From: Odontesthes bonariensis | Lineage: Eukaryota > Chordata > Actinopteri > Atheriniformes > Atherinopsidae | Reading direction: 5' to 3' | DNA: 64,000 nt | NCBI RefSeq assembly: GCF_027942865.1 | Contig: NC_134507.1 | Span: forward strand, 39,280,797 to 39,344,796 | Notes under the pieces: model-generated | Databases searched by the model: none | What the model saw: only the letters and a program-made list of their open reading frames with translations | What the model was told of the DNA's origin: nothing | Shown here: positions 1 through 35,303 of the stretch, in pieces | Layout of the letters: every line of letters starts with the position of its first letter | Position numbering within the stretch: the stretch's first letter is position 1 | Made by a program: the position numbers and the translations under genes

Positions 1-614
1 TTCAGCAAAGCTCTGTACAGTCTTTGTCTCAATTTTTTTTCCTGAAACTGGCACTCCTCTGGCCTTACTCCCTCACATAACACTGACGCAAAAGCCAATG
101 CAAAAAGTCCACAACTGCTAGTTGACTGCTGCATCTGCACAGCAGGCCTTCTGATAAGGAATTGAGGTGCTTGTGGACGAATTAACCAGGAAAGTTTTTG
201 CTTTGTCTTCTTGTTGGTGTTCGTATTCAGACTGTCATAAATGCAAAGCTCATTGGGTCCACAGAAAATATTACTAGCTGTGACCCAGTGGTTGTCATTT
301 ACATTTAATATTTGCACAAATGACTTCTCTGGTGTCCCAACCACCCCTCCCTGGTGAAGAGCCTGATAGCAAAGGCAGGACTGAAACCCATCTACATCAG
401 GGAACTTCTGCGCAAGATGAAAACAGGCTGAATCCACTTCGTCACTACTGAGCCACGTTTTGTGGTCCAGGATGCTTAGCATTTGGTCTTGGTGAATGAA
501 TGGCTGTTTTTTTAATTTGATGGTTTGGATGACTTCCTCTGGTGAGTGCTTTGTCCAAAGTGGTCCATGGCTCCTTTGCTTTTTTCCTGTAGGCCTATGC
601 ATTTTCTTCCTTTT
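1..614 (-). CDS. Ulp1/SENP (C48) peptidase domain exon of the gene above
   Basis: The acceptor (tctcatag, AG at 616-615) opens in phase 0 and the frame stays open to the window edge, 204 codons. The catalytic set is in the right order: His in NDNHWVTAS, Asp in IYDSL, an oxyanion Gln in VQMQQS, then Cys in STSSCGLFALAFA. Family members cut SUMO, NEDD8 or similar modifiers after a Gly-Gly; substrate cannot be read from sequence. The N-terminal part of the exon is basic (KRKKMHRPTGKKQR). The C-terminus lies outside the window. Some plant and invertebrate mobile elements also carry such a protease, so its presence does not prove a host function. Confidence 0.85.
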
Positions 615-3600
615 CTATGAGACAAACAGCATACAAACACACACTTAGTTTCCTGTAAAATTTTGGCCTACAATTGACTGTCCAGCTACCCTCCTTCTTA
701 AACATTTCTTTCATCAGTCTGTTTGTGTAACCTGTTCATGCCATGTGGATTACATAAATCAAGTTAGTTTTTGGATAAAAATGTGTTTATGCATACAGAT
801 CTGAGACATCATCAAGTCTGTAAATGTATCCAGCATTTTTGGCAAATCAAAATCAATCATTTAATTTGCTCTTCAACCGCAAATCCCATTTTTTGCAATG
901 AAAATGTTCTATGAACATTACAAAAGGCAATTAAATAAAGTGCACCTTCAAACCATGTGTGTCCTGGCTAACTGGTTTTTGGTCCCCATGGTTCTTGGAT
1001 GCCACTGATGCTGATTGGTTATGAGCTGGAGCTTGGCTTGTCGTCACCGGAGCTGCCACTGATGCTGATTGGTCATCAGCTGGAGCTTTGCTTTTTGTCA
1101 CTTGAGATGCAGTCACCTGATTTGTTTCATGAAAAGCATTAGAAACTTTTAAAAGAAGTGTTATTGATTCTAAATGTATCAAAAATGTTTGGTTAATCAA
1201 AATATTTCATGTAGTCTTCAACTGCATGTCATATTTTTGCAATGAAAATATAAATGAACATTACAAAAGGCAATTAAATAAAGTGCACCTTCAAACCATG
1301 TGTGTCCTGGCTAACTGGTTTTTGGTCCCCATGGTTCTTGGATGCCACTGATGCTGATTGGTTATGAGCTGGAGCTTGGCTTGTCGTCACCGGAGCTGCC
1401 ACTGATGCTGATTGGTCATCAGCTGGAGCTTTGCTTTTTGTCACTTGAGATGCAGTCACCTGATTTGTTTCATGAAAAGCATTAGAAACTTTTAAAATAA
1501 GTGTTATTGATTCTAAATGTATCCAAAATGTTTGGTTAATCAAAATATTTCATGTAGTCTTCAACTGCATGTCATATTTTTGCAATGAAAATATATATGA
1601 ACATTACAAAAGGCAATTAAATAAAGTGCACCTTCAAACCATGTGTGTCCTGGCTAACTGGTTTTTGGTCCCCATGGTTCTTGGATGCCACTGATGCTGA
1701 TTGGTTATGAGCTGGAGCTTGGCTTGTCGTCACCGGAGCTGCCACTGATGCTGATTGGTCATCAGCTGGAGCTTGGCTTGTTGTCACCGGAGCTGCAGCC
1801 ACCTGATTCATTTAAGGAGAAGCATTAGAAACTTGCATTTAGTTTTCAAACTTTTTTATATGCTAAGTACCATTTACAAAGGTGCTTCATATTACCTTTT
1901 TTTTTTTCTGTTTGAACTGGAATGGCTGTTTGATGGAGGTAACATAAACTCCTCTCCTACTTTGCTTTCGCTGCCTCCACTTCTCCTTCACAATACGGTG
2001 CTCCTTTAAGAAGAAACATATGAATTCACATATAAGTAATATAACTCATTTTGTGTTCAAAGTGACTCTTTTAACCTATGGTATGTAACAGATACATTAG
2101 AAAAAAGATAATCTCCATCTTTAAATCTGTATTCATTACTTGAGTTACAACTAATCACAAATTTTGTATGTCTTTGAGTGTTACTCTCCATGTTAATTTC
2201 CCAACTGTCTTGGAACGTGCCACTCACTGACTTAAATTAATTATTGTTAGAAGTTATTCATTTTGACTGTAACATATATACCGCTTAGCTGGCCAGCTGT
2301 TGATGCTACTTTTGATTAAGGCATTAACTACTGGATTACAACAAGCCTCTGCCTTCTGGAACTGTTCCCTGCTGCCTTTGACCAGGTCAGGAGAGTGGAA
2401 GCAGTAAGGGAAATAAAGTTTGTTCGTGATGGTTAAAGGGTGGTGAAAGGGAAAAGATCACAAGGTAACCTAAACTGAAAAATGTCATCATATGGTAAAT
2501 CATATGAATGTTATTATATGAATGTGCTTTCCACATTTCATTGACTGTCTGCTGATTACATTTTGAAGGCATGCCGTAGGCCTTGGACTTGAGCCCCCCT
2601 CCCCTTTTTATTTAAAAGGATGGACTGTTTTATTGGCATTCTAAAGCAACACGTTACAAGTGTCTGTGTCACACACAAGTGACACAGACACAAGCTATCA
2701 ATACATAATGATAAAAAACACTTTCCAAGATTTATTTTGTGCATTGCGAAGCACAAAACAAACTTGAATTGCACTCAATGACATATTGTGCTTGAAGCAT
2801 GGATAATGTTTTAGTCTCTGTAGTAATATGGTGGTAAATTAACATCTTTGTCAATTATAACCTCTTTTTTAAAGCTACAGATATATAAAATATACTATTA
2901 GGTGTCTCACCTTTCTTTTAGTGATTCGTTGCGAGTCATGGAATTCCCTTAAAAGGGCTTTGTGAGTGTCTTTGTAAGTATTAATGAAGTCATCTAGTCT
3001 GGTCAGTCGTCTTCCTTTAAAGCGGATTTTTTTCAAGTCCCACTGACTCTTTTCCATCACTCCCTGTGTCTTGTTGTCTTGCGTGAAATTCTGATCAAAA
3101 CAAAAGAACAATTATTGTGTTACCAAATTATTGTGTAAAATGCATTCCACTCCGTTACACCATAACGTTAAAATCAAAAGTTTAAAATGTCAGGAACCTT
3201 AAGAGAAAGCAATTATTGTGAAAAAGGCATCTTCTACTTTACTATACTTTATGACTAAAGTAATAGGTTTAAACTCTCAATGAAATTTCTAATATTCATC
3301 CAATTTATACTTCACCTGGCTTTTTTTCACTGATATCTTGGCAAATTTCTTTGAGAAGTTCTGATAGGGGAGCCCTTCACCATGCCTGCCGATGTCACCT
3401 GAAGATGTAAAACATTAATTTTAGATCATTTTTGGACACAGTTAAAGGACATATCTCTGCATACATTGTACTCAATCAGAATTGACTGGGTTAATCCTCA
3501 GGGGACTGTGAATGTGCTTACCACAGGTCTCAACAATACACCCAATATACATTGACATGTAGATTTTTATCAAATGTTGGTGGGAGAGGTAAGGTGATTT

Positions 3601-4125
3601 CATGTTTAGGATGGAGGAATAAGAACAGAGTCACCACAGCAATCCACTAATTGTATTTCCTGATAGCTGACATTTTGACTTGATGTTTACAGGAAACTGG
3701 CAAGGTTCATGACCCTTGAATTTATTAACTTGATTTCATGTCAATCAAACAAATAGATGGCAAGATATGTTGCCTTTTGAGCAAAGCCAGTGTTAGTTAC
3801 TGCAGTGGCAGTGGCAGTTAGGGACAGCTGACAAACAATTTTGGGTCACAGGAAGTGATGTCTTTTTAACCATAAATATTTTTAGGTTATTAATTGGTCT
3901 CATCAAAAATGAAAACATTTAAAAGTGTAACTGACCCAGCATCATACTTGTCCAAAGAGCTGCCTGAGGCAAGAAGTAAGCTGCCAATGACGAGATGAAT
4001 GTCTCAGAGTAATAGACATTAGGATCCCCTTCTTTGTCTAGGGGTGCGTTGTTTATGACATCCATGAAGTGTTCTTGAAATGGTGTTGGCCCGAAGGTGT
4101 CCTAAAAGAAGAAAAAGAAAAAGAA

Positions 4126-4182
<57 letters not shown>

Positions 4183-6390
4183 TTTCAAAGTTGATTAACG
4201 AAAGACATTATTTCAAAACATTAATTAGAGATTTAGTGGGTACCTCAAGGTCCTCAGGAACAATGCTGCTGTCATCAACAGTTGAGTCCCCAATGGTTGT
4301 CAGCTTTGTTTGAATGTTGTTGAAGTGCTTCTCAACATTTTCTGAGCTGCACGGGCTGGAGAAGATGACAGTGCAGCTGAGGAGCCTTTCATCTAACTCA
4401 CCAATGGAACTAGCTGATGTCAACAGTCCAAACACATGCATGGCCAGCTTGTAGTTCTTGGGTGCACTACGAGAGAAATACAAATTATTGCATTGTCTTA
4501 ATAAACACTTTGTTGCTAGTAGTGTAGAGATCTGCATTCTTTAAAAAAAGTGTTTCACTTACTGCTTTTTGCACAAAGTTTTTGCATTTTTCATGATGTG
4601 ACTGAGACAGCGGTGGAGGATAGGATGGCTGAAGTCTTGAGCAGTGCCTTTCCCTGTTAATATGTTAAAATAACTGTGGAGCAAGGCATTGAGGTTTGTT
4701 TTGCAGAAAGCCATCGTTAAGGCCTGCATGAGGACCATGGAGCCATCACATATAACCATGAGTGGAATTATGTTTTTTTGTCCATATTGTTTGGCATGAT
4801 CTGTCTGAAAGGAAGTAAGAAAATAAAGGACAGAGGCCGTTGTGTGGTCACAGGTCACAAACGTAGCAACAGGAAAAGGAGAGGAACCCTTCTTTGTGTT
4901 TCTGACCACCAACTCATACACATAAAAAGGACCCTCGCAGTGTTTGGATTTCTTAATAATGCTTCCAGTTGCATCTAGGTAGACTATGTCCTCTTTGGAT
5001 CGGTTGTGGAATATGCTAATGCTTCTCTTGGACCAAAGCATCACACCCTTTGGATGAAGTATCACTTTCTGAAGCACTTCATCAGGTTCATCTTTTTTTT
5101 CTTCCACCATCTTCAGGAGACTAAGAGTTTCATTTTTATGTTTCCTTTCCTTCATTCTTAGTCGATGTGAAATGGATTTAAGAACACCTGATGATGGTGC
5201 TTCATCTCTACAACCTGACTCAACCACTGATTCCTCCAGTTTTTCCAAGCTTTCAAGGTAAAGTGCCCTTGGGAGAGTGCTTAGAAGTTGCTGGTGTATT
5301 ATTTTTTGATTGTCTGCTCTGACAGGTCGCCTTTGCAGCTCTGTTTTACAATGCACTACTGTTTCGCCTCTGAAGTACACATCTGCTTTAAGTGTGGTCT
5401 CACTGTGCACAATGACATCAACTTCCACTGGGCAGTCACTGAACAAGCAATGTGCAGCGCATTTAAAAATAGGTGCATTCCTGGTTGATCCACGAACTTT
5501 GACCCGGTGTCCTGAAAATGCAAAACTGCAATGTGGATTGATTTTTCGAATACCGGCTGAAATTATGTTAGTCCATTGCAGTCCCTTGAAGTGGTCCTTC
5601 TTTTGAGTTTTCCGTAGTTTTGTCCAAGCATTGCGAGGAACAAAAAAAAATGAAGGTGGTGCTGGAAGACTCTGTATAAAGAATTCCTCTTCTTTGTCAG
5701 TGTCATCATCTTCATTGTCACTCCAACTGTCACTGTCTTCTTTTTGGACCTGCAAGACCAAAAATATTAATTTATGAAACTATATTTTGTTTGTAAAGTA
5801 GTTTTACACATTTTATTGTGTAATGATTTGAGATTAAACATTTGAGATGGATTTGTAAAGCCGGCTACGAGTAGTATACATAGTAATAAATGTGTACCAT
5901 ATGTATTAAATGTAATTCCTTACATATTCCTCTGGCTGTGCATATTTCGTCTCCTGTGCAAAATCCTCTTTTAAGTCCATATCTTCTTCCTTTTGAAAAA
6001 CATCCATCTCTTGTGTGTCTTCGTCCTCTTGTGCAGCTTCCATCTGTGGTGCATCTTCTTCTTTTTGAACCATTTGTATCACCTTTGATTCCTTTTTATT
6101 TCCATCCTCTTCAAATTCTTTGTCTTTTAAAGCTCTGTCCTTTTCATTATCCTCTTTTTTTTTGTCCTCATTGGGAACAACTCTCAACTCAAGTGCATCT
6201 TCACACTCTTGTGTTAGGTCTTTTTCCTGTGCGTCCTCTCCTGTTATGTCCTTGTTACTTTGGACATTGCACCTCTCCTGTTCATCTTCCTTCTCTGGTA
6301 CGAGTTCTGGTACATCATTGTTGTCCTCAACAGTGTCAGGCTGAGCCTGATATTTAAAACATGAAAAACAGTTTAAAAATATACTATTAC

Positions 6391-6448
<58 letters not shown>

Positions 6449-7385
6449 TGATTTGACAGACCTTAATACTTCTAATGTGTGCCCTCTTCAGTCGATATCT
6501 ATTTGTCGATGTGTTCGGTACACCCAAAGCAGTGCACAGTTCTGGCCAGAAGTTATCCTCGCTTGATGGACATTCCCCTGTTTTCTGCTCAGATAAGGAA
6601 TCCTTAAGTTTCCGGATGTGCTTTGAAATATCCTCATGAGCTATATATTTTCTTTTGGACTGTTAAGGCAAAAGCACATTTTTGTACCAGTGAAAAACAG
6701 GTATGTTTTACACATAAATATAATATAAAAATATATTATAAAACACAACTAATTTACCAGCTTAAAATGTTTTGTTATTGTCAAAAATTATTTGCCTCTC
6801 TTAGTGCATATTAAAATTTGGAAATGCATTAGAGTCTGATTCTTACCTTTCCAAATGTTTTGAAGACAATTCTAGATGGAAAATATTCAAGAAAAAAGCA
6901 CAATTAATTAAGAACAGTTAGTATTAATAGTAGGGAACTTAGGCAATTCTTTAGTCTATTTCATGATAATATTTTCCTAGACACTAACGATATAAATGTT
7001 GTCCAATTCCCATAAAACAACAACACTGTTATTAAAAAAACAATATTGTTTATAACACTGTTATTAAAAAACAAAGAGCGGGCGCGGTCGGTGGCGCAGT
7101 GGGTTAAGCAGCCGCCCCATGTATAGAGGCTTAGTCCTCGATGCAGCGGGCCCCGGTTCGACTCCCGCACCGAGCGGCCCTTTGCTGCGTGTCTTCCCCA
7201 TCTCTCTGACTCCTGCTACCTGTCTCTCTCACACTGTCCTTTCATTAAAGGCATAAGACGCCCCAAAAAATACTTTGAAAAAGACAAAACAAAGAGCACC
7301 TAAACAAGAATCAAAAGCAAGCACAAAAAGTTCATATCAGTATGAAAAAACAAACTCACCCATGTTTTCCCTTCTTCTCCGTCAT
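1..7385 (-). CDS. MULE-like transposase fused to Ulp1/SENP-type cysteine protease, at least 14 exons, open, runs off left edge
   Basis: I spliced this gene by eye. Exons: 7385-7360, 6871-6847, 6659-6462, 6346-5924, 5749-4563, 4466-4244, 4101-3936, 3398-3316, 3090-2911, 2003-1896, 1802-1632, 1459-1289, 1116-946, 614 to beyond 1. Every junction is GT-AG, all phases agree, and no stop occurs in about 1248 codons. The start (MTEKKGKHGIVFKTFGK) is the only ATG that joins exons 1 to 3 cleanly. Exon 4 is very acidic. Exon 5 has a Cys/His cluster (FKCAAHCLFSDC ... VVHCK) like a FLYWCH/WRKY-GCM1 finger, then YLDATG, VICDGS and HRCLSH. The last has the CxxH spacing of MULE transposases between the second acid and the Glu. 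Exon 10 is basic (possible NLS). Exon 14 is a C48 protease. Intron 1 carries a SINE. Family assignment rests on motifs only; a KDZ-type or unnamed superfamily is possible. A host role is unknown. Confidence 0.8.
946..1802 (-). repeat. Three tandem copies of a 171-bp phase-0 exon with its intron (unit about 343 bp)
   Basis: Exon copies lie at 1802-1632, 1459-1289 and 1116-946. Each is 171 bp (57 codons), starts after an ATCAG acceptor and ends LK before a GTGCACTT donor. Each exon itself holds about two copies of a 21-residue motif (core TSQAPAHNQSASVA). Flanking intron is copied too, so the block is a genomic tandem triplication. Being phase 0 at both ends, any number of copies keeps frame, so the linker between transposase and protease can vary in length. 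The first copy (1802-1632) has the motif start AAAPVTTSQ; the others have VTASQVTKSK. Confidence 0.85.
4126..4178. repeat. (TA)n microsatellite
   Basis: Uninterrupted TA dinucleotide run of about 26 copies inside an intron of the transposase-protease gene, between exons 6 and 7. Confidence 0.95.
6393..6448. repeat. (AGAT)n microsatellite
   Basis: About 14 AGAT tetranucleotides lie in the intron between exons 3 and 4 of the minus-strand gene, ending about 13 bases from the exon 3 donor. Confidence 0.95.
7080..7285 (+). mobile_element. tRNA-derived SINE in intron 1 of the transposase-protease gene
   Basis: An A-box-like stretch (GGTGGCGCAGTGGGTTAAGC) and a B box (GGTTCGACTCC) sit in a tRNA-like head, followed by a CT-rich body and a tail ending CATTAAAGGCATAA. 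The element is flanked by a 12-base direct repeat, AAAACAAAGAGC, at 7068-7079 and 7286-7297. The duplication is perfect, which suggests a fairly young insertion. Confidence 0.85.
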
Positions 7386-7800
7386 TCTTTCAGATCAATA
7401 GAAATTTCCAATGAGAAGAAACGAGGAGTTGCGATTCAATATTAGGAGGGTTTGTCAATTAAGCTCGGCCAATAGGATAGCGTAATGCATGCATGCATTA
7501 AAGGCATGCGTTAATCATGTAGGCTAATTACAACTCTCGTGAACATGTGTCATACAGTCATGCAGGATATTTACCTATGGGTGATCACTGCGTGTTTATC
7601 CAGGTGGCCTCTTAGTCTTCCTTGTTTAATTTCACATTAATTGTCTATATTTCACATTTTATGCTTTTTCTCTTTATACTTCTTTTAATATTTTCTTATA
7701 TTAAGACTTTTTGTTGTTCAGTGTTTACTGTTTATTTTACCGTGGTGAAGTTGGTTTGATATTGGATATTCGACAGATATTCGACAGATATTCACAATAA
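7386..7800 (-). promoter_or_regulatory. Upstream region of the transposase-protease gene
   Basis: No open frame or known repeat stands out here. About 75 to 90 bases upstream of the start codon lies GGCCAATAGG, a CCAAT-type box, followed by an alternating ATGCATGCATGCATT run. No TATA box is obvious. Promoter role is inferred only from position. Confidence 0.4.
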
Positions 7801-7807
7801 GGAAATA

Positions 7808-8107
7808 AGGTGTCTTTTTTCCCCAATACCTCCCAAGCCTTGTGACTCCAAACCAATGCAGAATAGTTCTCCTAGTACCAACCACACACACCTTTTTTAA
7901 AGCTAATTGTATGAACACGCTATTTTATAGAGACCATTCCCTATAGGAAATAATGGCCTTTCCTTTAAAAAATCATATAAAATAGAATGTGAATACAATT
8001 GATGTAAAAAAAAAAGGTGTGTGTGGTTGGTACTACATAGGAGAACTATTCTGCATTGGTTTGGAGTCACTAGGTCACAAGGCTTGGGAGGTATTGGGGA
8101 AAAAATA
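7808..8107. repeat. Long imperfect palindrome (foldback, about 300 bp)
   Basis: Arm 1 (about 7808-7898) and arm 2 (about 8010-8107) are reverse complements, sharing CAATACCTCCCAAGCCTTGT and CCAATGCAGAATAGTTCTCC. Symmetry continues inward: CTATTTTATA near 7920 pairs with TATAAAATAG near 7977. Arm 2 has two short insertions relative to arm 1. No transposase is present. It resembles a foldback or MITE-type element; it sits about 420 bp upstream of the gene start. Confidence 0.8.
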
Positions 8108-8157
8108 TGTTTATTTAACAGTGTATTTTTTAATTCCAACATGTCTTTATAGGAAAT

Positions 8158-8384
8158 TCCTGCAGTAAAGCAAAATTAAAAGCTATGTCAGAAGTAGCCG
8201 TCAACCTTGTGTTTGAAATCTCAATATTTAGTAATATGCAGCAGTAAAGCAACATGAAAGCCAGGAGCCATAGGAGTATCTGGAGATGTGTTGTAGATTA
8301 CATGCTGCATATATATTTGTCACATCCACTGTTGCTCTGAGCTTTGGAATTGCCAGTCCATGGTGCTAAGGCTCCACAACAATA
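8158..8384. repeat. Diverged edge monomers of the 170-bp satellite
   Basis: Two decayed stretches (near 8158 and 8227) still show the GCAGTAAAGCAA...GAAAG...AGCC pattern that matches GCAGTGAAACAACTTGAAAATC of the array. Divergence falls towards the array, as expected at a satellite border. Confidence 0.5.
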
Positions 8385-11300
8385 TTTTAATATGCCCATA
8401 TACGTCATGCATTTCAACATCAAATTATTAAAAGATGATGCAGTGAAACAACTTGAAAATCACCACAGAGGTAGCTGTGGACATATAGAACAAGAATCTG
8501 GTGGAGTTTGCAGAAAACAATCCTTTTTTTATTTTTTATGAATATTTTAATATGGCCATATACATCATGCATTGGGTAAGATTTCAGAATCAAATTATTA
8601 AACAATGATGCAGTGAAACGACTTGAAAATCACCACAGAGGTAGCTGTGGACATATAGAACAAGAATCTGGTGGAGTTTGCAGAAAACAATCTTTTTTTT
8701 ATTTTTTATGAATATTTTAATATAGCCATATACATCATGCATTGGGTAAGATTTCAACATCAAATTATTAAAAGATGATGCAGTGAAATGACTTGAAAAT
8801 CACCACAGAGGTAGCTGTGGACATATAGAACAAGAATCTGGTGGAGTTTGCGGAAAACAATCCTTTTTTTATTTTTTATGAATATTTTAATATGGCCATA
8901 TACATCATGCATTGGGTAAGATTTCAGAATCAAATTATTAAACAATGATGCAGTGAAACAACTTGAAAATCACCACAGAGGTAGCTGTGGACATATAGAA
9001 CAAGAATCTGGTGGAGTTTGCGGAAAACAATCCTTTTTTTATTTTTTATGAATATTTTAATATGGCCATATACATCATGCATTGGGTAAGATTTCAACAT
9101 CAAATTATTAAACAATGATGCAGTGAAACGACTTGAAAATCACCACAGAGGTAGCTGTGGACATATAGAACAAGAATCTGGTGGAGTTTGCGGAAAACAA
9201 TCCTTTTTTTATTTTTTATGAATATTTTAATATGGCCATATACATCATGCATTGGGTAAGATTTCAACATCATATTATTAAACAATGATGCAGTGAAACG
9301 ACTTGAACATCACCGAAGAGGTAGCTGTGGACATATAGAACAAGAATCTGGTGGAGTTTGCGGAAAACAATCCTTTTTTTTATTTTTTATGAATATTTTA
9401 ATATGGCCATATACATCATGCATTGGGTAAGATTTCAGAATCAAATTATTAAACAATGATGCAGTGAAACGACTTGAAAATCACCACAGAGGTAGCTGTG
9501 GACATATAGAACAAGAATCTGGTGGAGTTTGCGGAAAACAATCCTTTTTTTATTTTTTATGAATATTTTAATATGGCCATATACATCATGCATTGGGTAA
9601 GATTTCAACATCAAATTATTAAACAATGATGCAGTGAAACAACTTGAAAATCACCACAGAGGTAGCTGTGGACATATAGAACAAGAATCTGGTGGAGTTT
9701 GCGGAAAACAATCCTTTTTTTATTTTTTATGAATATTTTAATATGGCCATATACATCATGCATTGGGTAAGATTTCAGAATCAAATTATTAAACAATGAT
9801 GCAGTGAAACGACTTGAAAATCACCACAGAGGTAGCTGTGGACATATAGAACAAGAATCTGGTGGAGTTTGCGGAAAACAATCCTTTTTTTATTTTTTAT
9901 GAATATTTTAATATGGCCATATACATCATGCATTGGGTAAGATTTCAACATCAAATTATTAAACAATGATGCAGTGAAACGACTTGAAAATCACCACAGA
10001 GGTAGCTGTGGACATATAGAACAAGAATCTGGTGGAGTTTGCGGAAAACAATCCTTTTTTTATTTTTTATGAATATTTTAATATGGCCATATACATCATG
10101 CATTGGGTAAGATTTCAACATCATATTATTAAACAATGATGCAGTGAAACGACTTGAACATCACCGAAGAGGTAGCTGTGGACATATAGAACAAGAATCT
10201 GGTGGAGTTTGCGGAAAACAATCCTTTTTTTATTTTTTATGAATATTTTAATATGGCCATATACATCATGCATTGGGTAAGATTTCAGAATCAAATTATT
10301 AAACAATGATGCAGTGAAACGACTTGAAAATCACCACAGAGGTAGCTGTGGACATATAGAACAAGAATCTGGTGGAGTTTGCGGAAAACAATCCTTTTTT
10401 TATTTTTTATGAATATTTTAATATGGCCATATACATCATGCATTGGGTAAGATTTCAGAATCAAATTATTAAACAATGATGCAGTGAAACGACTTGAAAA
10501 TCACCACAGAGGTAGCTGTGGACATATAGAACAAGAATCTGGTGGAGTTTGCGGAAAACAATCCTTTTTTTATTTTTTATGAATATTTTAATATGGCCAT
10601 ATACATCATGCATTGGGTAAGATTTCAACATCAAATTATTAAACAATGATGCAGTGAAACGACTTGAAAATCACCACAGAGGTAGCTGTGGACATATAGA
10701 ACAAGAATCTGGTGGAGTTTGCGGAAAACAATCCTTTTTTTATTTTTTATGAATATTTTAATATGGCCATATACATCATGCATTGGGTAAGATTTCAACA
10801 TCAAATTATTAAACAATGATGCAGTGAAACGACTTGAAAATCACCACAGAGGTAGCTGTGGACATATAGAACAAGAATCTGGTGGAGTTTGCGGAAAACA
10901 ATCCTTTTTTTATTTTTTATGAATATTTTAATATGGCCATATACATCACGCATTGGGTAAGATTTCAACATCATATTATTAAACAATGATGCAGTGAAAT
11001 GACTTGAAAATCACCACAGAGGTAGCTGTGGACATATAGAACAAGAATCTGGTGGAGTTTGCGGAAAACAATCCTTTTTTTATTTTTTATGAATATTTTA
11101 ATATGGCCATATACATCATGCATTGGGTAAGATTTCAGAATCAAATTATTAAACAATGATGCAGTGAAACGACTTGAAAATCACCACAGAGGTAGCTGTG
11201 GACATATAGAACAAGAATCTGGTGGAGTTTGCGGAAAACAATCCTTTTTTTATTTTTTATGAATATTTTAATATGGCCATATACATCATGCATTGGGTAA

Positions 11301-13165
11301 GATTTCAACATCAAATTATTAAACAATGATGCAGTGAAACGACTTGAAAATCACCACAGAGGTAGCTGTGGACATATAGAACAAGAATCTGGTGGAGTTT
11401 GCGGAAAACAATCCTTTTTTTTTATTTTTTATGAATATTTTAATATGGCCATATACATCATGCATTGGGTAAGATTTCAACATCAAATTATTAAACAATG
11501 ATGCAGTGAAACAACTTGAAAATCACCACAGAGGTAGCTGTGGACATATAGAACAAGAATCTGGTGGAGTTTGCGGAAAACAATCCTTTTTTTTATTTTT
11601 TATGAATATTTTAATATAGCCATATACATCATGCATTGGGTAAGATTTCAGAATCAAATTATTAAACAATGATGCAGTGAAACGACTTGAAAATCACCAC
11701 AGAGGTAGCTGTGGACATATAGAACAAGAATCTGGTGGAGTTTGCGGAAAACAATCCTTTTTTTATTTTTTATGAATATTTTAATATGGCCATATACATC
11801 ATGCATTGGGTAAGATTTCAACATCAAATTATTAAACAATGATGCAGTGAAACGACTTGAAAATCACCACAGAGGTAGCTGTGGACATATAGAACAAGAA
11901 TCTGGTGGAGTTTGCGGAAAACAATCCTTTTTTTATTTTTTATGAATATTTTAATATGGCCATATACATCATGCATTGGGTAAGATTTCAACATCAAATT
12001 ATTAAACAATGATGCAGTGAAACGACTTGAAAATCACCACAGAGGTAGCTGTGGACATATAGAACAAGAATCTGGTGGAGTTTGCGGAAAACAATCCTTT
12101 TTTTATTTTTTATGAATATTTTAATATGGCCATATACATCACGCATTGGGTAAGATTTCAACATCATATTATTAAACAATGATGCAGTGAAATGACTTGA
12201 AAATCACCACAGAGGTAGCTGTGGACATATAGAACAAGAATCTGGTGGAGTTTGCGGAAAACAATCCTTTTTTTATTTTTTATGAATATTTTAATATGGC
12301 CATATACATCATGCATTGGGTAAGATTTCAGAATCAAATTATTAAACAATGATGCAGTGAAACGACTTGAAAATCACCACAGAGGTAGCTGTGGACATAT
12401 AGAACAAGAATCTGGTGGAGTTTGCGGAAAACAATCCTTTTTTTATTTTTTATGAATATTTTAATATGGCCATATACATCATGCATTGGGTAAGATTTCA
12501 ACATCAAATTATTAAACAATGATGCAGTGAAACGACTTGAAAATCACCACAGAGGTAGCTGTGGACATATAGAACAAGAATCTGGTGGAGTTTGCGGAAA
12601 ACAATCCTTTTTTTTTATTTTTTATGAATATTTTAATATGGCCATATACATCATGCATTGGGTAAGATTTCAACATCAAATTATTAAACAATGATGCAGT
12701 GAAACAACTTGAAAATCACCACAGAGGTAGCTGTGGACATATAGAACAAGAATCTGGTGGAGTTTGCGGAAAACAATCCTTTTTTTTATTTTTTATGAAT
12801 ATTTTAATATAGCCATATACATCATGCATTGGGTAAGATTTCAGAATCAAATTATTAAACAATGATGCAGTGAAACAACTTGAAAATCACCACAGAGGTA
12901 GCTGTGGACATATAGAACAAGAATCTGGTGGAGTTTGCGGAAAACAATCCTTTTTTTTATTTTTTATGAATATTTTAATATGGCCATATACATCATGCAT
13001 TGGGTAAGATTTCAGAATCAAATTATTAAACAATGATGCAGTGAAACGACTTGAAAATCACCACAGAGGTAGCTGTGGACATATAGAACAAGAATCTGGT
13101 GGAGTTTGCGGAAAACAATCCTTTTTTAATTTTTTATGAATATTTTAATATGGCCATATACATCA
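8385..13165. repeat. 170-bp satellite array, about 28 monomers
   Basis: The monomer is about 170 bp and AT-rich. It contains ATGGCCATATACATCATGCA, ATGCAGTGAAACGACTTG, GTAGCTGTGGACATATAG and a T-rich tract of variable length. Neighbouring copies differ at only a few positions. Marker variants recur at fixed distances: ATCACCGAAGAGG near 9311 and 10161 (about 850 bp, five monomers), and an ATCACGCATTGGG variant near 10945 and 12138 (1193 bp, seven monomers). Repeated 61-codon frames on the minus strand are by-products of the repeat and not genes. Confidence 0.95.
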
Positions 13166-13278
13166 TGCATTGGGCTCAAACTTCTTTACCGTAAGACGCA
13201 ATGTAGACTCGCACTCGATTTTCAAGTGTAGATCGCGCGACCGTGCCTCTCTGAAGCGCAGATGGCGTGACTGCAGTC
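13166..13278. other. Single-copy stretch between satellite and inverted repeat
   Basis: About 110 bases with no match elsewhere in the window. It separates the last satellite monomer from the start of the left arm of the large inverted repeat. Nothing recognisable is encoded. Confidence 0.5.
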
Positions 13279-14834: not shown

Positions 14835-15021
14835 ATCGCTTCTCGGCCTTTTGGCTAAGATCAAGTGTAGTATCTGTTCTTATCAGTTTAATATCTGATA
14901 CGTCCTCTATATGAGGACTACATGTTAAATGGATTTTTAGGCACAGGGGTTGAAAAAGGGGCTTGCTCCGTTCACTCCACGCATCGACCCGGTACTGCGG
15001 TGCCGCCGGGAACGGTGCACT
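14835..15021 (+). ncRNA. U2 snRNA, copy 1
   Basis: The gene matches vertebrate U2 from ATCGCTTCTCGGCCTTTTGG onward. It keeps the branch-point pairing segment GTAGTA (nucleotides 33-38), stem II, the Sm-region stretch near TAAATGGATTTTTAGG, and the 3' stem-loops ending GAACGGTGCACT. Length is about 187 nt, as in other vertebrates. U2 base-pairs with the intron branch point in the spliceosome. A PSE lies 60 bases upstream. Differences from mammalian U2 lie mostly in the 3' half. It looks intact. Confidence 0.93.
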
Positions 15022-15389
15022 CTTCCCAACTCTTGTGAAATAACAAAACCAGCGGTACATGGTGGTAGTTTCAGGGAGCCATTGTATTCTGACTTCTAAA
15101 ATGGAACTATAATCTTTAGAAAAGACGCAGTTTATGAGCACGTCGTGGGATTGAGCTTCCCTGGTTTCTCTGTATGACCATGAACACCAAACTACACACA
15201 GAGAACAGAGGAGCTTGACAGACACACACTAAGTTATCTGAGAGTCCCATTTTCAGCTGCAGAGAACAATCACATCAGGGAAGTCGACGTGCAGGCTCAA
15301 CATCAGCCTCTCAAGCCAACTCTCTGGTAAAATAGGGGCAACGTATGGTTCCAGCACCTATGTAACACATATTTGTCACGGGGACTGTG

Positions 15390-15508
15390 GCTTACGGCCA
15401 CACCGCCCTGAACATGCCCGATCTCGTCCGAACTCGGAAGCCAAGCAGGGTCGGGCCTGGTTAGTACTTGGATGGGAGACCGCTTGGGAATACCAGGTGC
15501 TGTAAGCA
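15390..15508 (+). rRNA. 5S rRNA, copy 1
   Basis: The gene begins GCTTACGGCCACACCGCCC and ends GGTGCTGTAAGC, 119 nt, followed by a T run that would stop RNA polymerase III. Internal control boxes (AAGCAGGGTCGGGCCTGG and TTGGATGGGAGACC) are intact. It lies about 370 bases downstream of U2 copy 1 and belongs to the same 1694-bp repeat unit. Confidence 0.95.
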
Positions 15509-15566
15509 TTTTTCTCTCTTCTCTCTGCATGTCTTTTGTTGAAACATCTGTTGATCACCCTGTGAT

Positions 15567-15705
15567 CCATCTTGCTGATCCTGGATCTGCTAAGGTGTCC
15601 CATGTCATGGTTGCCTTTGATCCTCATACATTTAACTTTGTCCTGACAAAGGAGCAGTTCCAAAAAGTCAAACAGGGACTGCCTTTGCATTTGACGCAGT
15701 CAAAC
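15567..15705 (+). repeat. About 135-bp dispersed repeat in the 5S-U5 spacer
   Basis: This stretch (GATCCTGGATCTGC ... CATACATTTAACTTTGTCCTGA) recurs at 14596-14672 (part), 17261-17399, in reverse at 45700-45860 and 52365-52440, and alone at 63705-63833 outside the cluster. Identity and function are unknown. Confidence 0.6.
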
Positions 15706-15729
15706 TGCATGCGCCTGGAGAAGCCAAAA

Positions 15730-15806
15730 GGCTTACAGCACCTGGTATTCCCAGGCGGTCTCCCATCCAAGTACTAACCAGGCCCGACTCTGCTTAGCTT
15801 CTGAGA
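15730..15806 (-). pseudogene. 5S rRNA 3'-half fragment, inverted, copy 1
   Basis: In reverse complement this is the 3' two-thirds of 5S rRNA (AGCTAAGCAG through GGTGCTGTAAGCC). The 5' third is absent, so it should not make a working rRNA, though it keeps most of the internal promoter. It faces the intact 5S gene and is present in every unit, so it arose before the array was amplified. Confidence 0.9.
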
Positions 15807-16111
15807 TAAAACTCTGGCTTTTAGTCTGCGAAAAGAGAGTGAAAGTGAACTCCACTTTGAGATGGCTCTGGGATTGGGCCGACTGGGAGAATTGCTTGAA
15901 AAAAACCTCTACACCCAATGAGCGGTCAGAACAAAGCCTCAAGACCCCTAGTCTTTTGCACAGAGTAAAAGACAAAGCAGCCATTGAATAGGGCCCGATT
16001 GTTCCTACCTGGTCGGCCGAGGAGCGAGCGTCTCAACCAAGCAAAGCTCACCGTGGGGAAGGTGGCTATGCCAACTAGCCTGATGCACTGCTCCCGCAGT
16101 GTCAAATACTC

Positions 16112-16231
16112 GTACTCTGGTTTCTCTTCATAACGTACAAGTCTTTCGCCTTTTACTAAAGACTTCCGTGGAGAGCAGCATTAATGAGTTGTTTCTATTT
16201 TTGGAAGGCTTTACCTTTGCGGGTGAAGCCC
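16112..16231 (+). ncRNA. U5 snRNA, copy 1
   Basis: The gene matches U5: TACTCTGGTTTCTCTTCA, then the invariant loop TTTCGCCTTTTACTAAAG (CGCCUUUUAC contacts exon ends), an Sm site in CTATTTTTGG, and a 3' stem-loop GGCTTTACC...GGGTGAAGCC. Length is about 120 nt. A PSE-like CACCGTGGGG lies about 60 bases upstream. The exact 5' end could shift by about 3 bases. Linked to U2 and 5S in one unit. Confidence 0.9.
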
Positions 16232-16528
16232 ATTCTGTCTGTGCAAAGGAAATCTTCTTGCTGTGCCAAGTGACTTCTCGGAGTAGAGTCACCTTATTTC
16301 TTGAGACCGTGCCCATGTTCAAAGCTGGAGCGCTAAATTGTTGTTGTTTGAATGGTGCTCAGTGGAGCGGGCGGGAGTGCAAAGTTGTACCATCTGAAAC
16401 GGCTGAAGAGTGCTCACTGCAGCGGGTGGGCGGAGGTGCAAAGTGACGCTTTGTAGGCAAAAAAAGAGCACCGCCACAAGTGCGCATTGTGCCAGGAAGG
16501 GCTCTCGGACGTGAAACAGTGGAGGGTT

Positions 16529-16715
16529 ATCGCTTCTCGGCCTTTTGGCTAAGATCAAGTGTAGTATCTGTTCTTATCAGTTTAATATCTGATACGTCCT
16601 CTATATGAGGACTACATATTAAATGGATTTTTAGGCACAGGGGTTGAAAAAGGGGCTTGCTCCGTTCACTCCACGCATCGACCCGGTACTGCGGTGCCAC
16701 CGGGAACGGTGCACT
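16529..16715 (+). ncRNA. U2 snRNA, copy 2
   Basis: Second full-length U2, 1694 bases after copy 1 and nearly identical; it differs at a couple of bases in the 3' half (ATATTAAATGG for ATGTTAAATGG; GCCACCGGG for GCCGCCGGG). PSE and GC-box/octamer-like promoter are present. It appears intact. Confidence 0.93.
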
Positions 16716-17083
16716 CTTCCCAACTCTTGTGAAATAACAAAACCAGCGGTACATGGTGGTAGTTTCAGGGAGCCATTGTATTCTGACTTCTAAAATGGAA
16801 CTATAATCTTTAGAAAAGACGCAGTTTATGAGCACGTCGTGGGATTGAGCTTCCCTGGTTTCTCTGTATGACCATGAACACCAAACTACACACAGAGAAC
16901 AGAGGAGCTTGACAGACACACACTAAGTTATCTGAGAGTCCCATTTTCAGCTGCAGAGAACAATCACATCAGGGAAGTCGACGTGCAGGCTCAACATCAG
17001 CCTCTCAAGCCAACTCTCTGGTAAAATAGGGGCAACGTATGGTTCCAGCACCTATGTAACACATATTTGTCACGGGGACTGTG

Positions 17084-17202
17084 GCTTACGGCCACACCGC
17101 CCTGAACACGCCCGATCTCGTCCGAACTCGGAAGCCAAGCAGGGTCGGGCCTGGTTAGTACTTGGATGGGAGACCGCTTGGGAATACCAGGTGCTGTAAG
17201 CA
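17084..17202 (+). rRNA. 5S rRNA, copy 2
   Basis: Full-length 119-nt 5S gene, differing from copy 1 by about one base (GAACACGCCC for GAACATGCCC). Internal promoter and T-run terminator are kept. Confidence 0.95.
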
Positions 17203-17423
17203 TTTTTCTCTCTTCTCTCTGCATGTCTTTTGTTGAAACATCTGTTGATCACCCTGTGATCCATCTTGCTGATCCTGGATCTGCTAAGGTGTCCCAGGTC
17301 ATGGTTGCCTTTGATCCTCATACATTTAACTTTGTCCTGACAAAGGAGCAGTTCCAAAAAGTCAAACAGGGACTGCCTTTGCATTTGACGCAGTCAAACT
17401 GCACACGCCTGGAGAAGCCAAAA

Positions 17424-17502
17424 GGCTTACAGCACCTGGTATTCCCAGGCGGTCTCCCCATCCAAGTACTAACCAGGCCCGACTCTGCTTAGCTTCTGAG
17501 AT
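17424..17502 (-). pseudogene. 5S rRNA 3'-half fragment, inverted, copy 2
   Basis: Same truncated inverted 5S as at 15730, in the second repeat unit, with one extra C in TCTCCCC. Confidence 0.9.
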
Positions 17503-17806
17503 AAAACTCTGGCTTTTAGTCTGCGAAAAGAGAGTGAAAGTGAACTCCACTTTGAGATGGCTCTGGGATTGGGCCGACTGGGAGAATTGCTTGAAAAAAA
17601 CCTCTACACCCAATGAGCGGTCAGAACAAAGCCTCAACACCCCTAGTCTTTTGCACAGAGTAAAAGACAAAGCAGCCATTGAATAGGGCCCGATTGTTCC
17701 TACCTGGTCGGCCGAGGAGCCAGCGTCTCAACCAAGCAAAGCTCACCGTGGGGAAGGTGGCTATGCCAACTAGCCTGATGCACTGCTCCCGCAGTGTCAA
17801 ATACTC

Positions 17807-17926
17807 GTACTCTGGTTTCTCTTCATAACGTACAAGTCTTTCGCCTTTTACTAAAGACTTCCGTGGAGAGCAGCATTAATGAGTTGTTTCTATTTTTGGA
17901 AGGCTTTACCTTTGCGGGTGAAGCCC
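17807..17926 (+). ncRNA. U5 snRNA, copy 2
   Basis: Identical by eye to U5 copy 1 in loop, Sm site and 3' stem; same spacing to its PSE. It precedes the third U2 promoter. Confidence 0.9.
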
Positions 17927-18249: not shown

Positions 18250-18599
18250 CTGCGATCGCCTCCTTTGGGTGGACTATTTTATGCCTTTTCGGCATTAAAT
18301 TTTTCTCGCTTTGGAGGTTCTTTTTTGCGTTCGATCAAAGTATTCCAAGTCGTTTGTAGTTGGAGTTCTTTGTCTTTAAATTTTCTTGTATTACCCTTTT
18401 TTTTTCCAGGTTTTTGCTTTTTGAACGAGTTTCAGCTGAAACAGGGTCGGTGTCGGTGTTCCATTTTTTTAGAGGAAGGTAAGTATCCATTTTTAATACC
18501 TTTTCATCCACTTTTTACTCTTTTATTGGGCTTTTAGTGTGATATTTATTTTTGTTCTTTTAAGCATTTTATTTAAAAACTGTTTGTGGTGCCTCCATC

Positions 18600-19913
18600 A
18601 TGTCGGCAAACTATGCTGGCATGAGGAGGCACCACAGCGCTAGATTTTTATTTAAAGAAAAAGAAGGAAAGCTTATAGAGATGTCCAGATTGGACTTCTC
18701 TCGGAAGCAAATTCAAAACATATTGAACTTCAAGCCAGACGATTTGAATTGCATCCTGTCATTGCCTTTTAACAAAGGTTTCGATGTAAGTTTTCGCACT
18801 GCAGCTTTGCTGCAGGAGTTTTGGATGAGATTTGGTAATGTGCAAGCCCAGTTTTCTGCGTTTACTGTTGAGAAACTTACTGACAATACTCTGAAGACAG
18901 TAATTGTCAGAATGTTCAATGAAATGGTGAACGCAGAAGATATCTGTATATGGTTGGGAAGATTCTGCACTGTTAAAGGCCAGGCAATGAAGGTGAGGGA
19001 TGTCGATGGCATCTGGAACTGCGCCTGGAGGGTCCCCATCCAACAATGGCAAGACCCCCAGGGCTTCCAGGGCCTGAAACATCTCCCATCAATGATTGTC
19101 TTGGGAGAAAACAGAGGCTACATCCACTACCAGGGACAGCCCAAACTCTGCCGCAAATGTGGGGAGCACGGGCACCTGGTGGAGGCCTGCACGAAGGTGT
19201 TTTGTGGCAAATGTAGAGGAATCGGTCACACCTTCGAAGAGTGTACGAATGGCAGAAAGTGCAATCTCTGTGGAGAATCAAACCACCTCTTCAGAGATTG
19301 CCCAAAATCCTTTGCCAACAAATTGAAATCCAAAAAAACGCGGGAAGGAAATGGAGGGCAGACCGAGGCAGTTAACGAGCTACTTGAAACAGCTGGGCTG
19401 GAAAATTCAAACTTCCCGCCAAAATCCCTGAATGGTGGACAGCAGTCAGGTGAGGCCGAGGAGGGGGAGGGGCCTGCTACACCCCCACCAATGGAGAGTT
19501 CTGGAGAGGAGGAGGAGGAGGTGGTGCAGGCAGAAGGCGGAGCTAGTTCAGAATGTGAAGAAGTCCAATCACAGGATGATAGCGAGGATGCCTCCCTCCC
19601 AGATGCCCAGCAAACAAAGAGGCTTGCATCAGAATTGTCCTCTGATTCTCCTATAGTCTCAGAGAAGAGGGGAAGAGCTGGGACTACCTCAGACAGTTCA
19701 TCTGTGGAGGAGCCCAGAGTCTTCCCCTCCAATTCACCAAATGAGGTCTCTTTTTTAAATGTAGTTCTGCAATCAACCCCTAGAGACTCAAAGTTTAACA
19801 AAACCTTGCAACAGAGGCCAACCCCCAGAGTCCGACCGGGGAATAGAGCTCAACACCCTCGCCTCTCACCTGTAGAAGTGAAGGAAGAGCTCCGTTCACA
19901 AGAAATTACATAA
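18600..19913 (+). CDS. LINE ORF1: gag-like nucleic-acid-binding protein (437 aa), left copy
   Basis: Open throughout. Three CCHC zinc knuckles lie around residues 190-245, e.g. [14 protein letters not shown] and [14 protein letters not shown]. The N-terminal part (residues 1-150) is globular and basic, the C-terminus Ser/Glu-rich and disordered. ORF1 proteins of this type coat the LINE RNA in the RNP. ORF2 starts 50 bases downstream. Nearly identical to the right-copy ORF1. Confidence 0.9.
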
Positions 19914-19962
19914 CTGCTTTTAAGACATTTTAAATGTTTTAACCCTCATTTAGTCTTTTAAG

Positions 19963-22188
19963 ATGTCATACCTGTTGTTTTTAACCATACTCATGACACT
20001 CACTCTCTCAACTATTAATGTGAGAAGTGTAAAGTCGAAACTTAGAGCCCAGAGTGTTTTATCCTTTCTTAGTTCTTTTAAGTCAGATGTTCTTTTAATA
20101 CAGGAATGCAGCCTACCGTTTTTAAAGCACTACAGACAGTGGGAGGAGATGTGGCCACAGACATCATTGTGGAGTGGATCCAACCAAAACAAAAATGATG
20201 GAGTGGCCATTTTAATCAAAAACCCTCAGGTTCTGGTGAAGGGCAGCACTGTGGTGAGAGACGGACGGGCACTTTTAGCACATTTGACTTTTATGGGACA
20301 AGATTTTAACCTCTTAAATATTTATGGCTTTAACGAAAAAAATGACCGGTATGACCTTTTAGAAGACCTGCAGTCCCACATGCTAGGTAGGGCACCACTA
20401 GTTTTAGGGGGTGATTTTAACTGTATTTTAAGCAGGAGTGACAGAAAAAGAGCAGGGGAATTCTTTAAAGTTGACAAAACATCGGTTTTATTACAGGGCA
20501 TATGCAAGGATTTTAAACTTCAGGACTGTTTTAAAACCATGCATCCCAGAGAGGAGGGCTTCACCTGGTTCAGTGGTGATGGCACCAGAGCCTCTCGTAT
20601 AGACTACCTTTTTACACGGGACTGCCCACCAACCGATGCTAGATTGACCCCCGTTTTCTTTTCTGATCACCTGATGCTTTCCTGCACCCTATCACTCTCT
20701 TCGGGTGTGACTTCCGGAAGTGGTCTGTGGAAACTAAACTGCTCCCTTTTAAAAGAAGATGAAATAGTTAGTCAGTACCGGGAGCAGTACCACGAGTGGC
20801 AGACCCTTCAAGACTTTTACGATACACGTGCACACTGGTGGGAAATGGTGAAGGAAAAGACCCAGACTTTCTTTAGACAGGCAGGTAGGAGAAAAAAGAA
20901 TAGGGAAAACAGACGCATGATGGGACTGCAGAAGCGACTACAGCGCTATTTTAAATTAAACCAACAAGGGATGGATTTTAATGATGAAATTAAACAAGTG
21001 AAAACAGAGATGTCGATTTTAGCAGATATTAAAAGTAAGGGTGTCATTTTAAGAAGCAGGGAACGAGAAATAGAGGAAGGAGAGAAGTGCACAAGGTATT
21101 TTTTTAAGAAAATTGTGAATAAAGGGGGGGCCATTTTAAAGCTAACAAAAGAGAACGGGTGCACAGTTGATTCAATGGAAGAAATTAAACAAGCTGTTGA
21201 ACAATTTTATCGTGAATTGTACGAACAAAAACCTGTTGAAATGGACACCATGACAGAAGTTTTAAATGTCATAGAAAAAACAGTAAAAGACAGTGTGCTT
21301 TTAACCCAAGATTTTACAATTTCAGAGTTAAATAAATGTTTTACAAATTTTAAGAAAGGGAAGTCCCCAGGACAAGATGGACTTCCCGTAGAATTTTATT
21401 TGACCTTTTGGGATATTTTAGCACCTGACTTGTTTACTGTTTTTATGGAATTTGAGCAACTTGACCGACTTCCTGACAGTTTTAGAGCAGGGATAGTGAC
21501 TCTTCTTCACAAAAAAAAAGACAAGACTGACTTGAAGAATTGGAGACCGATTACACTTTTAAACTTTGACTGTAAACTTTTTAGTAAACTTTTAGCCTCA
21601 CGTATGTCCTTGTTTTTAGAAGACCTGATTCACCCGGATCAAGCCTGTGCCATCCCGGGGAGGAAGATAACCGACAGCCTCGTACTGATCCGAGACACCA
21701 TCTGTTATGCGAGAGACAGAAACATTCGACTAGCAGTCCTAAATTTAGACTTTGAGAAAGCCTTTGATCGGGTCTCGCACCAGTACCTTTTCCAGGTACT
21801 GCAAAAAATGGGGTTCCCAGAAAGGTTTATAGCTTGGGTGGGTCTGCTGTACCGGGGCATTACCAGCAAATTCCTTGTTAACGGGCATCTGACAAAAGCA
21901 GTAAACATCCACTGCGGTGTCCGTCAGGGTTGTCCGTTATCTGCCCTCCTCTACATCATCTGTGTCGAACCACTGGCACAGAGCTTGAGAAGGGACCACC
22001 GAATCAATGGGGTGAGAGTCCCGGGGTACTGGGGATTAAATTTGACAGGGAAGGAGGAGGGTCATCAAATTGGCCAGACGTGGTAGGGAAAGTCAAGCAA
22101 AGACTAGGATACTGGGGACTTAGAGGACTGACCATTGAAGGAAAGGTTTTAATCATCAAAGCTGTGATTTTACCTTTGCTTTTACTAA
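19963..22188 (+). pseudogene. LINE ORF2: APE endonuclease and reverse transcriptase, left copy, broken
   Basis: The endonuclease runs through about residue 240 with STINVRS, LIQEC, GGDFNCIL, RIDYLF and FFSDHLML. The RT has LNLDFEKAFDRV and GVRQGCPLSALLY, but the YMDD block is lost in an internal deletion after RINGVRVPG (about 22026), which also shifts the frame. The frame resumes as [19 protein letters not shown] and ends at the Gmr1 junction. It cannot make a complete RT. Confidence 0.88.
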
Positions 22189-26012: not shown

Positions 26013-26509
26013 ATGTGTCCGGCCGAGTGAGGCACCTGGAAAAGAGGTGTCAGCCTCTGACAGTTCCAACTCATACTTACCTGGCAGGGGAGATACAATG
26101 ATCAAGAAGGTGGTTCACCCAGGACTCAGCCATTGCATACCGGCTGTACTGACCCTTACGAATTCCCCAAATGTGGGAATCTCGACTGCATAATTTCTGG
26201 TAGTGGGGGACTGCGTTCGCGCTCTCCCCTGATTTGACTGTTTAAAGTGAATATCCCAGGGCAACTCTACCTTGGTTTTTGTCCTGGCGTTGCTGCTTTA
26301 ATAACGCCTTTCTATCTTTAAAACCCATGTTTTGCAAGGTTTGCTGAATGCTGCGGCAGGTCTGCACAGCTGATATGCAGCTGCGCAGTTGTCAGGTGAT
26401 GTCATACAGTGCAGTCACCCCAGGCAGGTGGGCGTTGCCTTAGTGATGGCAACAACGGCAGCATTTCTACATTGGAGATATTAAGCCGTGAGGGTTTGCT
26501 TCAACTAAG
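26013..26509 (+). repeat. U1 repeat unit, first copy (part)
   Basis: The unit starts within the PSE (GTCCGGCCGAGTGAGGC), where the Gmr1 element ends, and includes a U1 gene plus the spacer that recurs at 35304-35590. It is cut at 26509 by the Ty3/Gypsy insertion. Confidence 0.85.
26073..26231 (+). pseudogene. U1 snRNA variant with 5-nt deletion
   Basis: The sequence matches U1 from ATACTTACCTGGCAGGGG (5'-splice-site pairing segment intact) to CCCCTG. It lacks GAGGC in stem-loop II (CCAGGACTCAGCC instead of CCAGGACGAGGCTCAGCC), and its PSE is interrupted upstream. Probably inactive. Confidence 0.85.
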
Positions 26510-34878: not shown

Positions 34879-35078
34879 TAAGAATTTTCCCACTGTGTGT
34901 GTGTGTGGCTCTAGAGATGGGGAGAGTGGAAAAACTAAATCAATTTGTGCTCCAAGTTCCTTGGTTGTTGAAACAAGAACTGATCAGAAAGATGAAGAAA
35001 AGCCGGACTGTTTTAATCTGCAAGCTTTTCAGATTCAGGTTAGCTGCTGGCATGGCACTGCAGACAGTTGAATTTGCT

Positions 35079-35099
35079 GCACCGTCCGGCCGAGTGAGG
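35079..35099 (+). promoter_or_regulatory. U1 proximal sequence element
   Basis: GCACCGTCCGGCCGAGTGAG lies with its CACCG exactly 60 bases upstream of U1. The same core is at -60 in U2 and about -60 in U5. Equivalent copies precede 35852 and 36564. Confidence 0.75.
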
Positions 35100-35139
35100 C
35101 ACCTGGAAAAGAGGTGTCAGCCTCTGACAGTTCCAACTC

Positions 35140-35303
35140 ATACTTACCTGGCAGGGGAGATACCATGATCAAGAAGGTGGTTCACCCAGGACGAGGCTCA
35201 GCCATTGCACACCGGCTGTACTGACCCTTGCGAATTCCCCAAATGTGGGAATCTCGACTGCATAATTTCTGGTAGTGGGGGACTGCGTTCGCGCTCTCCC
35301 CTG
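35140..35303 (+). ncRNA. U1 snRNA, intact copy A
   Basis: 164 nt, starting ATACTTACCTGGCAGGGGAG (ACTTACCT pairs with the 5' splice site) and ending CTCTCCCCTG. It keeps the U1-70K loop (GATCAAGAAGG), the U1A loop (CCATTGCACACCGG) and the Sm site (AATTTCTGG). The family's usual length is 164. Promoter with PSE is intact. Confidence 0.95.

Follow-up and report, generated by a model that had tools for sequence, protein, structure and literature searches.

A transposase-Ulp1 fusion gene in Odontesthes bonariensis is probably the protein gene of a large, recently mobile DNA transposon

We analysed a 64,000-nucleotide stretch of the genome of the fish Odontesthes bonariensis (contig NC_134507.1, positions 39,280,797 to 39,344,796, called the window here), which opens with a minus-strand gene joining a DDE-type transposase to a Ulp1 (Peptidase_C48) protease. 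We consider it highly probable that a large DNA transposon, recently mobile in a teleost, has this as the only protein gene seen in it; in the branch of the family that holds it, the protease end was probably replaced. The basis for this is that the element occurs in seven near-identical copies, that its inverted termini carry adjoining arrays, that 8-bp duplications are found, and that the frame is unbroken in four of the seven copies.

The gene was rebuilt from the raw sequence. It has 14 exons with 3,746 nt, or 1,248 stop-free codons, within the window, all 13 introns are GT-AG and the exon phases are consistent throughout, as described in an earlier note made from the sequence alone; the motifs listed in that note (YLDATG, ICDGS, CLSH, NDNHW, IYDSL, VQMQQ and SSCG) each occur once and in that order. 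The window edge truncates exon 14, and 229 nt more lead through a PHD finger to a stop codon, giving a full protein of 1,324 amino acids. The exons are as follows, taken from the rebuilt frame unless other evidence is given:

7360..7385, minus: exon 1, with the ATG at 7385-7383
6847..6871, minus: exon 2
6462..6659, minus: exon 3 (rebuilt frame and weak protein matches)
5924..6346, minus: exon 4, acidic linker
4563..5749, minus: exon 5, coding for most of the DDE core and for a zinc-binding-like region (frame, relatives, genomic copies)
4244..4466, minus: exon 6
3936..4101, minus: exon 7
3316..3398, minus: exon 8
2911..3090, minus: exon 9, which holds the last acidic residue, E790, at 3052-3054 (frame, alignment)
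1896..2003, minus: exon 10
1632..1802, minus: exon 11, repeated linker exon, copy 1 (frame, tandem-repeat search)
1289..1459, minus: exon 12, repeated linker exon, copy 2 (frame, tandem-repeat search)
946..1116, minus: exon 13, repeated linker exon, copy 3, identical to exon 12 (frame, comparison)
1..614, minus: exon 14, part inside the window, Ulp1 (C48) protease; 229 nt lie further outside (Pfam, residues)

The gene model is not a product of chance, because the Triplophysa rosa protein P0001 aligns with it in exons 5-10 and 14 and runs without gaps over all five junctions between exons 5 and 10. The two proteins share 74-85% of residues in exons 5-10 and 71% in exon 14, but 21-39% in exon 4 and exons 11-13. 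No match to exons 1-3 is seen in P0001; exon 3 is backed only by P0013 (E 1e-5) and P0004 (E 3e-4), both of them weak matches, and exons 1-2 only by the open frame and their unchanged presence in other genomic copies. Exons 11-13 are one exon in tandem, a 343-bp exon-intron unit present three times at window positions 946-1802. The number of these units varies among genomic copies of the element and, on reading its sequence, the Triplophysa protein likewise has a repeated linker.

The Pfam Peptidase_C48 family matches above its cut-off of 20.7 bits (28.8 bits for exon 14, 25.1 bits for the whole protein). The complete His-Asp-Gln-Cys set that the earlier note assigned to this domain is present in order, the predicted active-site residues being H1153 (288-290), D1171 (234-236), Q1206 (129-131) and C1212 (111-113). 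The C-terminal PHD finger scores 41.3 bits against a Pfam cut-off of 24. No Pfam model matches the transposase part, in which the following residues stand out:

4973..4975, minus: first acidic residue, D483 (alignment)
4745..4747, minus: second acidic residue, D559 (alignment)
4598..4609, minus: C605-x2-H608, between the acidic residues, identical in 21 of 21 aligned rows
5351..5461, minus: C-x3-C-x4-C ... H, possible WRKY-like zinc finger (residues, Foldseek list)

The WRKY domain appears on the Foldseek list with probability 1.00 but E 0.026. Of the 21 rows, 18 have the first D of the triad, 20 the second D and 18 the E; the remainder are gaps except for one V. These three acidic residues lie in a predicted RNase H fold which, if the model is right, makes the protein a DDE transposase.

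The genome (945 Mb in 187 contigs, the window being C2:39280797-39344796) was searched with the exon-5 protein. The search gave 49 matches. Seven of these cover the full length at 99-100% identity and are spread over six contigs, and the gene is therefore not a lone host gene. The rest of the window contains no other piece of the transposase family (tblastn, E 1e-3). When the six other copies were compared with the window copy over 30 kb around each, exons 1-10 differed by 0.04-0.47% and introns 1-9 by 0.18-0.99%. The frame is unbroken to the final stop in four of the seven copies, the window copy included, and broken in three. Because the numbers of linker units differ, the lifted edges of exons 11-13 miss splice sites in at least three copies, so that "unbroken" in copies C6, C7b and C17 is judged from the reading frame of the exons as lifted.

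The earlier note, whose interpretation is supported in part, had left a choice between an active DNA transposon and a domesticated gene of the SUMO pathway. A transposase-Ulp1 fusion retained by the host would account for the conserved frame, for an exon divergence below that of the introns and for the equal conservation of Ulp1 and transposase relative to Triplophysa. Such a gene is not expected in seven copies on six contigs, each with its own termini and different flanks, nor with three of these copies broken, nor with a family tree that conflicts with the fish tree. A single domesticated gene is contradicted by the dispersed, near-identical copies, and domestication seems to us extremely improbable; the transposon half of the proposal is the one that the copies, ends and duplications favour.

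Comparison of the seven copies with their flanks places the 3' end of the window copy 3,319 bases past window base 1 (C2:39277478), a total length of 16,596 bp. The other copies measure 11,751, 11,158, 14,788, 10,594, 15,340 and 8,706 bp, the last being C16. The parts of the element that lie outside the gene are:

1..13277, minus: transposon, part inside the window (seven copies compared with flanks)
13175..13277, minus: terminal inverted repeat, unique part of 103 bp, 101/103 identical to the other end (copy comparison)
8411..13174, minus: array of 28 satellite units of about 170 bp, with an inverted 16-unit array at the other end (TRF, copy comparison)
7815..8105, no strand: internal 291-bp palindrome between the array and the gene, inside the aligned part of copy C6

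The earlier note had proposed looking beyond the gene for terminal inverted repeats and a target duplication of 8-10 bp, and both were found. Six copies begin with ACTGC(A/G)GTCACGCC and C24 begins with ACAGCGG, the opposite ends being the reverse complement. The 103-bp termini agree end against end at 101/103 (window), 101/103, 103/103, 102/103, 101/103 and 94/102 positions; in C16 the terminus comparison reveals a deletion near the 3' end. Exact 8-bp target duplications flank four of the seven copies (C7b, C24, C16 and C17). As a control 2,000 random end pairs were tried at 169 offsets each, and a match of at least 8 was obtained in 0.7%. A 38-base terminus pattern, allowing up to two mismatches, occurs 73 times forward and 63 times in reverse, a reversed control giving none; of its 29 exact matches, 17 are at places other than the seven copies. 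Among the places listed, facing pairs of termini comprise six coding copies and three further pairs spanning 1.1, 1.1 and 3.3 kb, which may be non-autonomous derivatives.

Satellite arrays adjoin the inner side of the 103 bp and are inverted between the two ends in all seven copies. The array at 8411-13174 is thus part of the element, which rules out an unrelated satellite. The numbers of units at the two ends are 28/16 (window), 9/9, 14/1, 21/15, 5/4, 1/1 and 12/26, and no such arrays were seen outside the elements within the 30-40 kb stretches read around the copies. In a set of 161 units, average identity is 96.8% between opposite ends of the same copy and 95.9% between different copies; the pairs are not independent, and the difference hints that units may be exchanged between the ends of one element. 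The palindrome was considered as a terminus or a separate insertion and rejected as either, as it lies inside the aligned element and no flanking duplication is visible by eye.

The element has to be placed among transposons that carry Ulp1, which the earlier note regarded as mainly known from plants and some invertebrates. In fish the pairing is not new. Zisupton is a fish element of about 11 kb whose single multi-exon gene ends in Ulp1; we know of no satellite-array ends or C-terminal PHD finger in Zisupton. On these grounds the window element could belong to Zisupton/KDZ, a superfamily that has been reported in fish before. The 8-bp target duplications given for Zisupton/KDZ in PMC12730594 point the same way. 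The KDZ profile, however, does not match the window protein in a list that extends to E 10, and of 22 candidates scored in the genome it is positive at 10 other loci and at none of the seven copies. Zisupton was rejected on this evidence, and membership of the superfamily is very unlikely.

Other Ulp1-bearing transposases are described in passages of PMC2836005. They include Mutator elements of hydra, lancelet and plants, in keeping with that part of the earlier statement, and these resemble the window element in joining a DDE transposase to Ulp1, some with a PHD finger, but the window element misses the Pfam MULE profile. They also include Ginger1, which has a C-terminal Ulp1 and, in one family, Ulp1 with PHD. 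The core of Ginger1 is of the integrase type, whereas the window protein has no rve match at E up to 10, and Ginger1 was therefore rejected; the window does have an rve match, in one of its retroelements.

The earlier note called the transposase core DDE-type and MULE-like. The conserved acidic residues support the first of these; the Pfam MULE profile does not support the second. It is absent from the matches of the window protein, listed up to E 10, and from the 25 families listed, out of 28, for 18 relatives, and of 43 candidates scored in the genome it is positive at eight other loci and at none of the seven copies. A canonical MULE was rejected for this reason. The loci over the MULE cut-off are C18:7791854, C29:30591243, C15:38993079 and five more, with open frames of up to 579 amino acids. 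IS256 elements are the prokaryotic kin of MULEs. In a Foldseek search with the predicted transposase model, the IS256-family protein ISCth4 is the best of the 50 matches listed, at an identity of 9-13%, ISCth4 being a bacterial element. We place the transposase, as a probable separate lineage, on the side of IS256 and MULEs.

The element may nevertheless be a true, very divergent MULE or a Rehavkus, a serious possibility towards which we do not lean. The IS256-like predicted fold and the C-x2-H between the acidic residues would suit this, and so would the 8-bp duplications, which lie within the 8-11 bp that the survey PMC6446971 gives for MULEs. The 103-bp inverted termini with arrays agree with the often long inverted termini of MULEs. 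The same survey describes Rehavkus, from arthropods and annelids, as having a PHD finger and a minisatellite near an end. Its PHD finger lies within the transposase domain and its duplications are of 9 bp, against a C-terminal PHD finger and 8 bp here, a likeness and a difference between descriptions, not sequences. The Mutator/Foldback element Tm1 likewise has composite inverted termini with tandem repeats of variable number (PMC3169594), but these repeat a motif of about 14 bp and the duplications are mostly of 9 bp, where the units here are of about 170 bp. Against a MULE stands the Pfam profile, positive elsewhere in this genome.

Relatives were sought with residues 240-900 of the window protein, and 18 proteins matched, 17 with fish names and a distant one without. 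The nearest, P0001, is 73% identical over 99% of the query and has the order transposase - Ulp1 - PHD. Pfam finds PHD in nine and Macro in four of the 18. Profiles built here place a protease in the same predicted protein in 16 of the 18 fish rows (the 17 named and the window), of type A in three (window, Triplophysa and Cirrhinus) and of type B in 13; P0002 and P0013 have neither type. A profile search added two distant proteins, of which P0020 (EukProt) scores above the UCH cut-off, with PHD and Macro just below theirs. By eye the C-terminal end of P0018 resembles the start of a ubiquitin-specific protease, with no Pfam match. The Ulp1-PHD end of P0001 used as query matched itself only. In the PDB the exon 14 sequence matched a single chain, an Ulp1-like SUMO protease (E 0.32). 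A profile of the relatives' alignment A2 matches SENP2 (E 5e-6) and PHD structures, and these matches speak for the relatives because A2 includes only exon 5 of the window. The transposase model also matches most of an uncharacterised 544-amino acid protein of a wasp bracovirus (BFVD O92526, Bracoviriform inaniti; E 2e-12), which is perhaps a captured relative.

Protease pairs were compared among the seven rows with near-complete cut-outs, those of P0010, P0014 and others being absent or shorter than 180 amino acids. Ten type-B pairs score 388-938; leaving aside P0008 and a near-identical cichlid pair, their proteases are 57-61% and their transposases 54-57% identical. The type-A pair of window and Triplophysa is 74% identical in the protease and 80% in the transposase. 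The ten pairs of A with B score 31-63, over short stretches only, despite a transposase identity of 51-59%. A second transposase lineage in this genome, 25-28% identical to window exon 5, has co-linear pieces of type-B protease downstream at both places that were read (best E 2e-9 and 6e-24, from the matches listed), and at one of them a PHD finger closer to type B (36-47% identity) than to type A (27%) among those listed. The loci of this lineage include C1:4052722, C18:1664624, C1:12653168 and C17:10829213, with open frames of up to 1,432 amino acids and a repeated linker. Because the distant lineage carries type B, this type is probably the older, and on these sequence comparisons the branch holding the window element probably exchanged its Ulp1-PHD end.

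It is also conceivable, if rather unlikely, that the two types are one fast-diverging domain and nothing was replaced. Both follow the transposase and share a Q...SSCG stretch (profile, 20 columns, E 4e-4), and their PHD fingers still score weakly with each other, which weakens the PHD contrast. The gulf between A-B and B-B scores argues for replacement, as does the fact that a lineage so distant in its transposase still matches type B.

Several observations weigh against the reading of a mobile element with a replaced protease end. Type-B pairs with P0008 have proteases 38-42% identical at a transposase identity of 49-58%, so that fast protease divergence has to be reckoned with, because P0008 displays it within type B. 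An exact target duplication is missing from the window copy and from C7a, and C6 is flanked by GGACAGAC at one side and an interrupted form of it at the other. The IS256 fold match has low TM-scores (TMq 0.19) on a model of middling quality (pLDDT 70), and the Ulp1 domain alone yields no usable structure model (pLDDT 40).

The transposase tree, from which P0017 and P0018 were left out, conflicts with the fish tree. Garra groups with Oryzias latipes, and Astyanax with Perca and Epinephelus; Mugilogobius and Oryzias have two rows each, and in both cases these fall in different clades. Holding the otophysan rows together is rejected, with p-AU 8e-69 when the window row is included (assumed otophysan) and 2e-58 without it. 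Either horizontal transfer or an old duplication with loss would account for this history.

In the mechanism that we propose, the N-terminal part of the protein would bind the element ends, and the RNase H-fold DDE core would excise the element and insert it at a new site through joining points staggered by 8 bp, while the PHD finger would tether the complex to chromatin. In the least certain step, Ulp1 might act there on host proteins of silencing or repair and strip them of SUMO or a similar tag. A passage of PMC2836005 had already suggested that Ulp1 takes an active part in transposition.

More tentatively, and with somewhat less than even confidence, we propose that these elements are a separate superfamily or a deep lineage on the MULE side, teleost-wide with distant kin in other eukaryotes. 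They would have a replaceable end of a SUMO or ubiquitin protease with PHD and sometimes Macro, and termini of satellite arrays that grow and shrink, and each would act both as a mobile gene and as a supplier of satellite DNA. Searches of the openly licensed literature turned up no description of the family, which may be catalogued in Repbase or Dfam, neither of which was searched.

The window has other features. Beside the transposon lies a cluster of small-RNA genes (14835-17919, 45195-46572 and 26073-36680), with two tandem U2 - 5S - U5 units and a third reversed, and four U1 genes, three of them spaced about 712 bp apart. Within intron 1, at about 7080-7260, a stretch looks by eye like a tRNA-derived SINE, with no call from ARAGORN or Rfam. 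LINE-type copies at 18564-22086 and 49204-51856 each have a 449-amino acid frame with ZCCHC3-like RNA-binding domains, adjoined by endonuclease(-RT) frames of 710 and 420 amino acids; since these two copies keep long open frames, the other mobile genes of the window are not all short. Viral contigs gave 27 pattern stretches, none of which was confirmed.

The survey PMC6446971 treats the absence of MULEs from vertebrates as an open question and regards the vertebrate reports, among them those from zebrafish, as misidentifications. The element described here, recently mobile in a fish, with four unbroken copies and a transposase of IS256-like predicted fold, bears on this question, as do the open frames that match the MULE model at other loci of this genome. 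A protease that is fused to the transposase and apparently was exchanged offers a way to ask directly why transposases keep capturing SUMO and ubiquitin proteases, and the satellite ends provide a test case for transposons seeding satellite DNA.

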